Positions 47,254-49,846 of a stretch of 64,000 nucleotides of DNA are shown here, in pieces. The DNA is from Bacillus sp. AZ43 (GTDB taxonomy: Bacteria > Actinomycetota > Actinomycetes > Mycobacteriales > Geodermatophilaceae), in contig SPQJ01000005.1 in assembly GCA_004570425.1 (NCBI GenBank), positions 62,001-126,000 of the forward strand, in the 5' to 3' direction. Position 1 is the stretch's first letter, and every line of letters begins with the position of its first letter. A model generated the notes under the pieces. The model saw nothing but the letters and a program-made list of their open reading frames with translations. It was not told where the DNA came from and searched no databases. The position numbers and the translations under genes are program-made.

Positions 47254-48573
47254 ATGACGAGCGACCACCGCCGGGGTGCGCGGTTCACCTACGAGGGCGT
47301 GGACATCTCCCCCGCCACCGGCGAGATCACCTCCCGCTACTCGCTCGACGGCCGGCAGTTCCGGGAGGTCGTGCACGTACCCGGCGACCTCGACTGGGAC
47401 CAGCCGGGCGTCGCCGCGGCGGCCCGCATCCTGTTCCTGCTCAGCGGCATCTCGTACTACAAGACCGCCGCTCCCCCGGTCATCGACCTGGGTGACACCC
47501 CGGTGACCGACGACGAGATCGCGTTCCTGCGCGACTTCTACGTCCAGGGTCTCGGCGAGTTCAGCTACGTCAACGACCTGCCGATCGACGACCTGCAGAT
47601 CGTCGGCGGGCGGCCCGACCTCGCCGAGCCCGTGCCCTGGCACACCGACGGCGAGCGGCCGCTGATCCCCTTCGGCGGCGGCATCGACTCGGTCGTCGTC
47701 GTCGAGGAGACGAAGAAGCAGTTCCCCGACAGCAGCCTGTTCATCGTCGGCCGGTTCGACCCGATCGAGGACGCCGCCGCCGTCACCGGGCTGCCGATCG
47801 TGCGGGCGAGCCGCACGCTGGACCCGCAGGTGCTGCGCAGCCGCGAGCTCGGCTTCCTCAACGGGCACGTGCCGGTCACCGGTGTGCTGTCGGCGATCGC
47901 CGTGCTCGCCGCGGTCCTCGACCACCGCAGCTCGGTGATCATGAGCAACGAGTGGTCCGCATCGTCGCCCACCATCGAGGTCGACGGGCGCGGCATCAAC
48001 CACCAGTACTCGAAGTCGCTGGACTTCGAGGGCGGCTTCCGCCGGCTCCTGGGCGCCGTCCTGCCGGGTTTCCGCTACTTCTCCGCGCTGCGGCCGTACT
48101 CCGAGCTCTGGGTCGCCGAACGGTTCGCCCAGCTGCCCGAGTACCACCCGGTCTTCCGCAGCTGCAACCGCGCCTTCCACGTCGACCCGGCGCTGCGCGC
48201 CTCGGCCTGGTGCGGCGAGTGCGACAAGTGCGCCTTCATCGACCTGATCCTGGCGCCGTTCCTGCCCGCCGACGAGCTGCGCGCGATCTTCGGCGGGCGC
48301 GAGCCCCTGGACCGCGAGGAGATGCTGCCGAAGTTCCGCGGTCTGCTCGGCGACACCGCGGCCACCAAGCCGTTCGAGTGCGTCGGCGACGTCGGCGAGT
48401 GCCGCATCGCCCTCGAGCTGGCGGCCGCGCGCCCCGACCGCGCCGGCAACCCGGTGCTCGCGCGGCTCCGCGCGGAGCAGCCCGCCGCACCCGGGCCCAC
48501 CGACCGGTACTTCGCCCCGATGGGCGAGCACTTCATCGAGGCGCCCTATGCCGCCGACGATCTCCTGGTCTGA
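47254..48573 (+). CDS. murL: MurL-like UDP-MurNAc-L-Ala-L-Glu epimerase
   Basis: A 439-residue protein matching the MurL family, which inverts the terminal L-Glu of UDP-MurNAc-L-Ala-L-Glu to D-Glu with ATP (AMP and PPi released). A PP-loop-like adenylation motif, IPFGGGIDSVVVVEE, is at residues 139-153, and a zinc-type CGECDKC lies at 320-326, both as in N-type ATP pyrophosphatase folds. The 3' end overlaps the MurD-like gene by 26 bases (start at 48548), giving translational coupling. The call rests on this pairing, the length and the motif set; activity was not tested and the family name is recognised, not computed. Confidence 0.78.
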   Translation: MTSDHRRGARFTYEGVDISPATGEITSRYSLDGRQFREVVHVPGDLDWDQPGVAAAARILFLLSGISYYKTAAPPVIDLGDTPVTDDEIAFLRDFYVQGLGEFSYVNDLPIDDLQIVGGRPDLAEPVPWHTDGERPLIPFGGGIDSVVVVEETKKQFPDSSLFIVGRFDPIEDAAAVTGLPIVRASRTLDPQVLRSRELGFLNGHVPVTGVLSAIAVLAAVLDHRSSVIMSNEWSASSPTIEVDGRGINHQYSKSLDFEGGFRRLLGAVLPGFRYFSALRPYSELWVAERFAQLPEYHPVFRSCNRAFHVDPALRASAWCGECDKCAFIDLILAPFLPADELRAIFGGREPLDREEMLPKFRGLLGDTAATKPFECVGDVGECRIALELAAARPDRAGNPVLARLRAEQPAAPGPTDRYFAPMGEHFIEAPYAADDLLV

Positions 48574-49846
48574 CCTGCGCGACCGGCGGGTCGGCGTCTG
48601 GGGGCTCGGGGTCGAGGGGCGGGCGAACCTGCGGAAGCTGGCTTCCCTCGGGGTCACCCCGCAGGCCCTGGTCGACGACCGGCCCGCCTCCGACGACGTG
48701 CTCGCCACGGCCGCCGGCGGGCTGGAGGCCCTGGCCGCGTGCGACGTCGTCGTGAAGTCCCCGGGCATCTCCCGCACGCGGGACGACCTGCGCTCGCTGG
48801 AGGCGGCGGGCGTGCCGGTGGCCGGCGGCCTCGGGCTCTGGCTGGGCGAGGCCGACCGGGACCGCGTCGTCTGCATCACCGGGACCAAGGGCAAGAGCAC
48901 GACCACCGCGATTGCCGGGCACCTGGCCACGGGGCTCGGTCAGCGGGTGCTCCTCGGCGGCAACTTCGGCACCGCCCCGTGGGACCCCGAGGCCCCGCAG
49001 GACGTGGACTGGTGGGTGGTCGAGACCTCCAGCTACCAGGCCACCGACGTGGTGCTTGGCCCCGCCGTCGTGGCGGTGACGTCGCTGAGCCAGGACCACC
49101 TCGACTGGCACGGCGGACCGGAGAACTACTACCGCGACAAGCTGTCCCTCTGCACCCGCCCCGGCGTCCGCCGCGTGGTCGCCGACGGCGACAGCGCGTT
49201 GCTCCGCGAGCACGCCGAGCTGCTGGGGCCGGCGGTGCGCTGGGTGCACACGACCGAGGAGTCCGCGTGGGCGGCGGGGCTCGGCCTGCTCGGCGAGCAC
49301 AACGTGCGCAACGCCCTGGTCGCCCGCGCGGCGCTGGTCGAGCTCGGGGTTCCCGGCGCGAACGACGACGACCGCATCGCCGCGGCGGCCCGGGACTTCG
49401 CCGGGCTGGGCAGCCGGCTGCGCCCGGTGGGCCGGGTGGACGGCGTGGACTTCGTCGACGACAGCCTGTCGACCAACGTGCTGCCGACGCTGGCCGCCGT
49501 CGAGGCGTTCGGGGGCCGGCGGGTCGCGCTGCTCGTCGGCGGGCACGACCGCGGCATCGACTACGCCCCGCTGGCCGCCGGGCTCGCCGGGCGGGCCGAC
49601 CTGCTCGTCGTCTGCCTGCCGGACAGCGGCCCGCGCATCGCCGCGTCGCTGCGCGACGGCGCTCCGGACGTCGACGTGCGGGAGGTGGCCGACCTGGCCG
49701 AGGGGGTGCAGGTCGGCTTCGACTTCGCCCGTCCCGACGGCGTCGTCCTGCTCTCCCCCGCCGCGCCCAGCTTCGGCCGCTACCGGAACTACGAGGAGCG
49801 GGCGGCCGACTTCGTCGCCGGCATGCGGGCTCTCAGCGGGAGCTGA
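48548..49846 (+). CDS. murD2: MurD2-like UDP-MurNAc-L-Ala:L-glutamate ligase
   Basis: A 432-residue Mur ligase. The N-terminal Rossmann part is VGVWGLGVEGRANLRKL, the ATP loop is CITGTKGKSTTTAIAG (GTKGKST at 112-118), the central domain has ETSSYQATDVVLG and TSLSQDHLDWHGGPENYYRDKLSL, and the C-terminal domain VDFVDDSLSTNVLPTLAAVEAF and LLVGGHDRGIDYAPLA. It is MurD-like but distinct from the dcw-cluster MurD. In organisms with MurL, MurD2 adds L-Glu (not D-Glu) to UDP-MurNAc-L-Ala, making the substrate for the epimerase. It overlaps the MurL gene and ends 13 bases inside the convergent HxlR gene. Confidence 0.8.
   Translation: MPPTISWSDLRDRRVGVWGLGVEGRANLRKLASLGVTPQALVDDRPASDDVLATAAGGLEALAACDVVVKSPGISRTRDDLRSLEAAGVPVAGGLGLWLGEADRDRVVCITGTKGKSTTTAIAGHLATGLGQRVLLGGNFGTAPWDPEAPQDVDWWVVETSSYQATDVVLGPAVVAVTSLSQDHLDWHGGPENYYRDKLSLCTRPGVRRVVADGDSALLREHAELLGPAVRWVHTTEESAWAAGLGLLGEHNVRNALVARAALVELGVPGANDDDRIAAAARDFAGLGSRLRPVGRVDGVDFVDDSLSTNVLPTLAAVEAFGGRRVALLVGGHDRGIDYAPLAAGLAGRADLLVVCLPDSGPRIAASLRDGAPDVDVREVADLAEGVQVGFDFARPDGVVLLSPAAPSFGRYRNYEERAADFVAGMRALSGS

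Follow-up and report, generated by a model that had tools for sequence, protein, structure and literature searches.

Two overlapping genes and their surroundings

The window (i.e. the whole stretch of 64,000 nucleotides that was analysed) contains two overlapping genes (Table 1), which the initial annotation had read as a MurL-MurD2 pair; in Xanthomonas oryzae, MurD2 adds L-Glu to UDP-MurNAc-L-Ala and MurL epimerises it, which bypasses glutamate racemase. The features on which this was based are present as described: the two reading frames overlap, GGGIDS and CGECDKC start at residues 141 and 320 of the 439-residue protein, and GTKGKST starts at residue 112 of the ligase. An overlap of exactly 26 bases was found in 32 of the 88 distinct loci in which murL precedes murD2 on the same strand (the window included; start codons were picked by the analyst's rule and some murD2 genes are truncated at contig ends), and murL and murD2 may be translationally coupled across it.

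Table 1. Features of the murL-murD2 locus and the aligned selectivity positions of its ligase
Feature	Position	Strand	Details
murL	47254..48573	+	439 aa, ATG start; NF041275 match, motifs
murD2 (MurD-type ligase)	48548..49846	+	432 aa, ATG start; TIGR01087 match, motifs
murL/murD2 overlap	48548..48573	+	26 shared bases
Window MurD2 vs E. coli MurD			D183=D182, L307=K319, R335=K348, P407=A414, F409=L416 (alignment)

Both proteins share 84-91% identity with their copies in three congeners, and the pairwise dN/dS among these four congeneric copies of the pair is 0.13-0.20; murL and murD2 are under purifying selection. The pair is preceded by genes for a MarR regulator and a DUF5313 protein, and followed by those for an HxlR regulator (on the opposite strand) and a GNAT protein, with no evident wall gene among them. 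HxlR and GNAT adjoin the pair in all three MurL-positive congeners, and the HxlR-GNAT adjacency is also present, without the pair, in the congener that lacks MurL (G186). As a clean empty insertion site G186 was nevertheless rejected, since this adjacency is all that is conserved and the flank on the other side could not be located.

Family membership of the two proteins and a proposed mechanism for MurL

Profile searches assigned both proteins to the MurL and MurD/MurD2 families, and the trees described below agree with their being a MurL-MurD2 pair. The ligase matches TIGR01087 (MurD) at 260.3 bits, above the cut-off of 211.95. Of its Pfam domains, the middle and C-terminal ones of the Mur ligases exceed their cut-offs and the MurD-like N-terminal one does not. 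The 439-residue protein matches NF041275 (MurL) over residues 9-408 (E 1.4e-93), and this is the only NCBIfam family that it matches at E 0.01 or better, so that it does not fall in another PP-loop family, as the initial annotation had considered; a Pfam scan assigned it to no family. Its score of 313.8 bits is far below the curated cut-off of 700, which was not counted as failed membership because the model is specific to the Xanthomonadales and none of the 80 MurL-positive genomes of the order reaches that cut-off, including those of the Micromonosporaceae, whose homologues also score just ~386-426 bits.

Three motifs, [G/S]GGxDS, SCN-x-WCxxCxKC and KP[FWL][ED]CVG, are kept in 138, 139 and 133 of 140 distinct MurL sequences, and all three are present in the window protein. 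The first two would represent a PP-loop (N-type ATP pyrophosphatase) adenylating site and a structural zinc site (cysteines 304, 320, 323 and 326), with which MurL would activate a carboxylate in the manner of QueC, itself a carboxylate-activating enzyme. Such a mechanism is consistent with the AMP that is released in the MurL reaction according to the available text of PMC8788868, where carboxylate activation is given as a hypothesis of the original authors. Alternatively, MurL might be neither a PP-loop nor a zinc enzyme, in which case the GGGxDS and cysteine motifs would be coincidental and the fold new. The lack of a Pfam family fits this alternative, as does a PDB sequence search with the window protein alone, which gave nothing at E 1 or better. 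Profile comparisons also gave weak matches: a 60-sequence MurL profile gave TtuA chains (PP-loop proteins) as its top two PDB matches, with E 0.018-0.019 and an alignment confined to the surroundings of the motif, and plant HMA domains appear among its matches too (surely chance matches), while a comparison with the QueC profile aligned the motif region and ~60 columns beyond it at a probability of 3%. Still, the conservation of the first two motifs, the alignment of the TtuA chains at precisely the motif and the formation of AMP (PMC8788868, in the text available) make this alternative unlikely; it concerns the mechanism only and is compatible with the main explanation of the pair.

Genes for D-glutamate in the genome

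The genome assembly (4.06 Mb, 78 contigs, completeness 99.99) carries one MurL and, above cut-off, one MurD, i.e. that of the window; four further MurD matches are weaker (22-83 bits) and belong to reading frames of other Mur-type ligases, murE and murF accounting for two of them. A separate dcw MurD, which the initial annotation had expected elsewhere, was searched for in the genome and in the dcw cluster and was not found: the cluster runs murE-murF-mraY-ftsW, without murD between mraY and ftsW. The genome was likewise searched for murI, where neither the PF01177 racemase profile nor TIGR00067 (glutamate racemase) gave a match, the latter not even a partial one, and the sole match to PF01063 (class-IV aminotransferase) is IlvE (NF009897, 500 bits). 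In relatives, murI is located between cysM and an MBL-fold gene (gene names by eye from the sequences), and in the window's genome these two genes are 108 bp apart, without murI, in the interior of an 82-kb contig.

Both syntenic places are contiguous, and an assembly gap was therefore rejected as the reason for the missing murI and murD. A gap is likely near the end of ftsW, where murG may lie, and not at the place of murD: the dcw contig breaks off within ftsW, and the genome gave no match to murG. At this contig end (L008:1-300, the end of contig C51 in assembly G000) the ftsW frame merges, by eye, into ABC-transporter ATPase-like sequence, which looks like an assembly chimera.

Judging from gene content, this organism very probably has no route to peptidoglycan D-Glu other than the pair: the only MurD found is that of the window, the dcw cluster has no murD, murI is absent from where synteny would place it, and the sole class-IV aminotransferase found is IlvE. 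We consider it highly likely that murL and murD2 form a complete replacement module, and the only such route, with murI and the dcw murD gone. By analogy with their homologues, these particular proteins would carry out the two published reactions, so that D-Glu would be made on the nucleotide precursor. The initial annotation proposed that the organism makes, or can make, D-Glu in this way; the genome context fits D-Glu made on the precursor, and the single MurD and the dcw cluster without murD make the route look obligatory rather than optional. As there are gaps in the assembly (murG had no match), the genome could still encode a D-Glu enzyme of an unusual kind, from another family.

MurL and MurI across the order

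Across 298 genomes of the order, 78 have only MurL, 212 only MurI, two both and six neither (MurL at E 1e-3 or better, 80 genomes; MurI at E 1e-30 or better, 214 genomes, of which 203 above the curated cut-off). MurL and MurI are nearly mutually exclusive in the order, an association that is descriptive, as the genomes counted are not phylogenetically independent. The 51 genomes of the window's family divide into 19 with MurL only and 32 with MurI only, with none having both or neither. The Micromonosporaceae are split as well, with eight genomes having MurI and no MurL besides the MurL-positive members.

The exchange extends to the ligase. All 79 genomes searched have a single MurD at E 1e-35 or better, and within the window's family (39 genomes) it lies beside murL and scores 228-262 bits in the 19 MurL-positive genomes, against 349-380 bits in 20 MurI-positive ones. 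In each of the nine MurL-positive genomes checked, mraY is followed by ftsW without murD, whereas mraY is followed by murD in all three MurI-positive genomes checked (with ftsW next in the one fetched further). Similarly, in eight of eight MurL-positive genomes checked the place flanked by cysM and the MBL gene lacks murI, which both MurI-positive controls have there. In one MurL-positive congener (G261), about 43 codons of the 5' end of murI are left at this place (L223:4582-4710; 39.3 bits, where the highest-scoring of 20 shuffles reached 26.6), a remnant which suggests that the loss of murI in G261 is fairly recent; no convincing murI remnant was found there in the other seven. A degenerate murI was considered in G170 and G292 (alignments of ~25%, with 25-27 bits against 23-24 for shuffles) and rejected, because the place holds an intact ORF, by eye a HAD-like phosphatase, which also precedes murI in G039.

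Two of the 80 MurL-positive genomes (G247 and G024) also have MurI, together with a canonical-like MurD, and this counts against the main reading. The MurL-like match in G024 is remote (94 bits), and the MurL of G247 is identical to one on plasmid pLS1-1 of Pseudonocardia sp. HH130629-09. G247 is also the precedent for a further explanation, in which the pair of the window is a secondary or conditional route (serving e.g. a specialised peptide) and an assembly gap hides the canonical one; an assembly of 78 contigs without a murG match leaves some room for this. That the organism's own genome is contiguous at both syntenic places, without murI or murD, and that relatives with long contigs (G288, G170 and G292) show the same, makes this explanation extremely improbable.

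The plasmid homologue itself (L195:9992-11365) is annotated as hypothetical, has no MurD2 partner in the stretch examined and is possibly a peptide epimerase with another substrate; MurL homologues also occur on two further Pseudonocardia plasmids. Two MurL-positive Micromonosporaceae carry a diverged glutamate-racemase-like gene at 91-93 bits, below the cut-off (G163, C135:15264-15884; G185, C2:4253984-4254610), and partial racemase matches of 24-30 bits occur in five MurL-positive genomes of the window's family and, beside true murI, in two MurI-positive ones. Another MurL-positive genome, G003 (family f4), has two mraY above cut-off.

Lineages and number of switches

The MurL sequences of the Geodermatophilaceae occupy two places in a tree of 80 rows, hand-picked from 145 sequences over 350 aa (the family labels of the genomes being taken from named neighbours in this tree). 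Lineage A, comprising the window's genus, G257 and a Modestobacter MAG whose grouping with G257 is the basis for naming the family Geodermatophilaceae, lies near sequences of Frankiaceae, Acidimicrobiia and Kineosporia, while lineage B (g5 and g8) is on a long branch. A single clade of A and B was rejected (p-AU 0.0004) in a test on 78 rows that left out two long-branch rows, with the group named after the first tree and long branches in play. The MurD2 tree (96 hand-picked rows, quick method, with 18 of 22 canonical-type loci fetched) has the same split between A and B, with the canonical MurD of the family on a separate branch. Gene order differs accordingly: it is murL-murD2 in lineage A, and murD2-murL in 14 of 14 pairs of lineage B.

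In a tree of four housekeeping proteins (in which the row of G190 is just 27% filled), G257, which has MurL, groups with G039, which has MurI (95/95), and G186, which has MurI, is sister to the MurL-positive members of the window's genus (87/89). Together with lineage B, these placements lead to at least three switches within the Geodermatophilaceae, and the trees indicate that the swap occurred by way of two MurL-MurD2 lineages of opposite gene order. As G186 (MurI and MurD) and the window's species (MurL and MurD2) belong to one genus, the contrast between them opens the swap to experiment.

Stereoselectivity of the ligase

According to the available text of PMC8788868, the stereospecificity of X. 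oryzae MurD2 was altered by E197D and R358K, and K319T made E. coli MurD accept L-Glu. To read these positions, the ligases were aligned together with E. coli MurD and the MurD2 of X. sacchari. Lys is found at E. coli positions 319 and 348 in all 19 canonical MurD rows (E. coli and 18 relatives), and the window ligase lacks this pair, having L307 and R335 instead. It shares this with other ligases from loci that contain murL: position 319 is Leu in 94, Ile in 33, Phe in one and Lys in none of 128 distinct MurD2s, and position 348 (X. oryzae 358) is Arg in 124 of the 126 that have a letter there.

The third position is different. At position 182 (X. oryzae 197), the 128 MurD2s have Glu (83), Asp (44) or Cys (one), and the window's has Asp (D183), which makes it a variant MurD2 rather than a plain member. 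The residue goes together with the MurL motif: all 33 ligase partners of a MurL with GGG[I/V/L]DS carry Asp, and all 83 Glu-type ligases are paired with a MurL with [G/S]GGKDS, counts that are phylogenetically dependent. On this alignment, the published E197 determinant is absent from the window's ligase class, with the other MurD2 signatures present. No assay of Asp-class MurD2 ligases was found in the literature searched.

D183 counts against the main reading and is what favours its principal rival, namely that the ligase is dual-specific or mainly specific for D-Glu, that D-Glu comes from an unrecognised racemase, aminotransferase or uptake, and that MurL has a different role. Asp is the residue of canonical MurD at this position, and the single exchange E197D was enough to alter the stereospecificity of the X. 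oryzae enzyme (PMC8788868, in the text available). However, the ligase has Leu and Arg in place of K319 and K348, which it shares with other MurD2 lineages, the genome searches found no known D-Glu enzyme, and the presence of MurL tracks the absence of murI across the order, so that this rival is quite improbable.

There is a good chance that about a third of the MurL-linked MurD2s, the window's included, select L-Glu without the Glu determinant of X. oryzae, and hence that there are at least two solutions for the stereo-switching of MurD around a common core (Lys319 to Leu/Ile and Lys348 to Arg), while murI and the dcw murD were swapped wholesale for the module, from two lineages, at least three times in one family. 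The Asp-class ligases would provide a direct test of how a MurD-type enzyme chooses between mirror-image glutamates. The supply of D-Glu is essential and a drug target.

Comparison with known systems and wider distribution

The pathway is a known one, encountered here in a new place and with a ligase from a class that lacks the E197 determinant. MurL is described as this epimerase in the available text of PMC8788868 and PMC5808125, and the X. oryzae pair is XOO_1320/XOO_1319 (Feng et al. 2017, via PMC8788868). The window resembles that pair in having linked genes and no D-Glu synthesis gene and, in a comparison made directly with X. sacchari rather than X. oryzae, in the Arg, Pro and Phe of the ligase at E. 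coli positions 348, 414 and 416 and in the epimerase motifs. It differs in the Asp at the 182/E197 position and in the GGGIDS of MurL, as MurLs with a Glu-type ligase have GGGKDS; X. sacchari MurL is 38% identical to that of the window over 84% of the protein.

The initial annotation considered actinobacterial members little studied, which is only partly true, since the MurD2-MurL pairs of Micromonospora and Salinispora tropica have been confirmed in vitro (available text of PMC8788868). These belong to the same order as the window's organism, and no MurI above cut-off was found in the 24 MurL-positive Micromonosporaceae searched. In most of the pairs seen there, with the exception of Longispora, the genes are divergent and not overlapping (in G236 and G163, murL and murD2 are on different contigs); Glu occupies position 182 in eight of nine rows, and MurL forms a separate clade. 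Lineage B shares its family with the window, as well as the lack of a murI above cut-off and, where checked (G170, G292 and G237), a dcw cluster without murD; it differs in gene order, in having Glu at position 182 in 14 of 14 and in the long branch of its MurL. Canonical MurD and MurI, found in the same genus in e.g. G186, lead to the same product with a ligase of the same family, but with Lys at positions 319 and 348, murD in the dcw cluster and murI beside cysM.

In the available text of PMC8788868 the pathway is limited to relatively few genera, of which four actinobacterial and eleven proteobacterial ones are named, and that of PMC5808125 mentions MurL orthologues of low similarity in a fungus, cyanobacteria and an amoeba. 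The terms 'Geodermatophil', 'Modestobacter', 'Blastococcus', 'Acidimicro' and 'PP-loop' are absent from the review PMC8788868, and no paper was found that joins 'Geodermatophilaceae' with 'glutamate racemase', although the subscription literature may hold more. The near-complete mutual exclusion between MurL and MurI across the order, the swaps in the Geodermatophilaceae (at least three, as read from the trees) and the Asp-type MurD2 go beyond what is given in the available text of these two papers.

A scan of GTDB genomes for MurL gave at least 592 stretches, of which at least 581 were confirmed, and 80 loci were kept. These include Acidimicrobiia, Solirubrobacterales, Nocardioides, Microbacterium, Gordonia, Kineosporia and Dormibacterota, as well as MAGs of Saccharibacteria and Gracilibacteria, for which a binning error is possible; in one of each (L159 and L163), murL lies beside a MurD-like ligase gene. 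The survey places the pathway in many more groups than the few genera of the review (PMC8788868, in the text available), repeatedly swapped in. A search of viral_contigs gave no confirmed MurL relative. An unverified phage clone from human faeces, MT836755.1, contains a MurL-like gene followed by a MurD-like gene (L196:3881-6536); its MurL groups with that of a Gracilibacteria MAG on long branches, and the clone is probably a bacterial contig mislabelled as phage.
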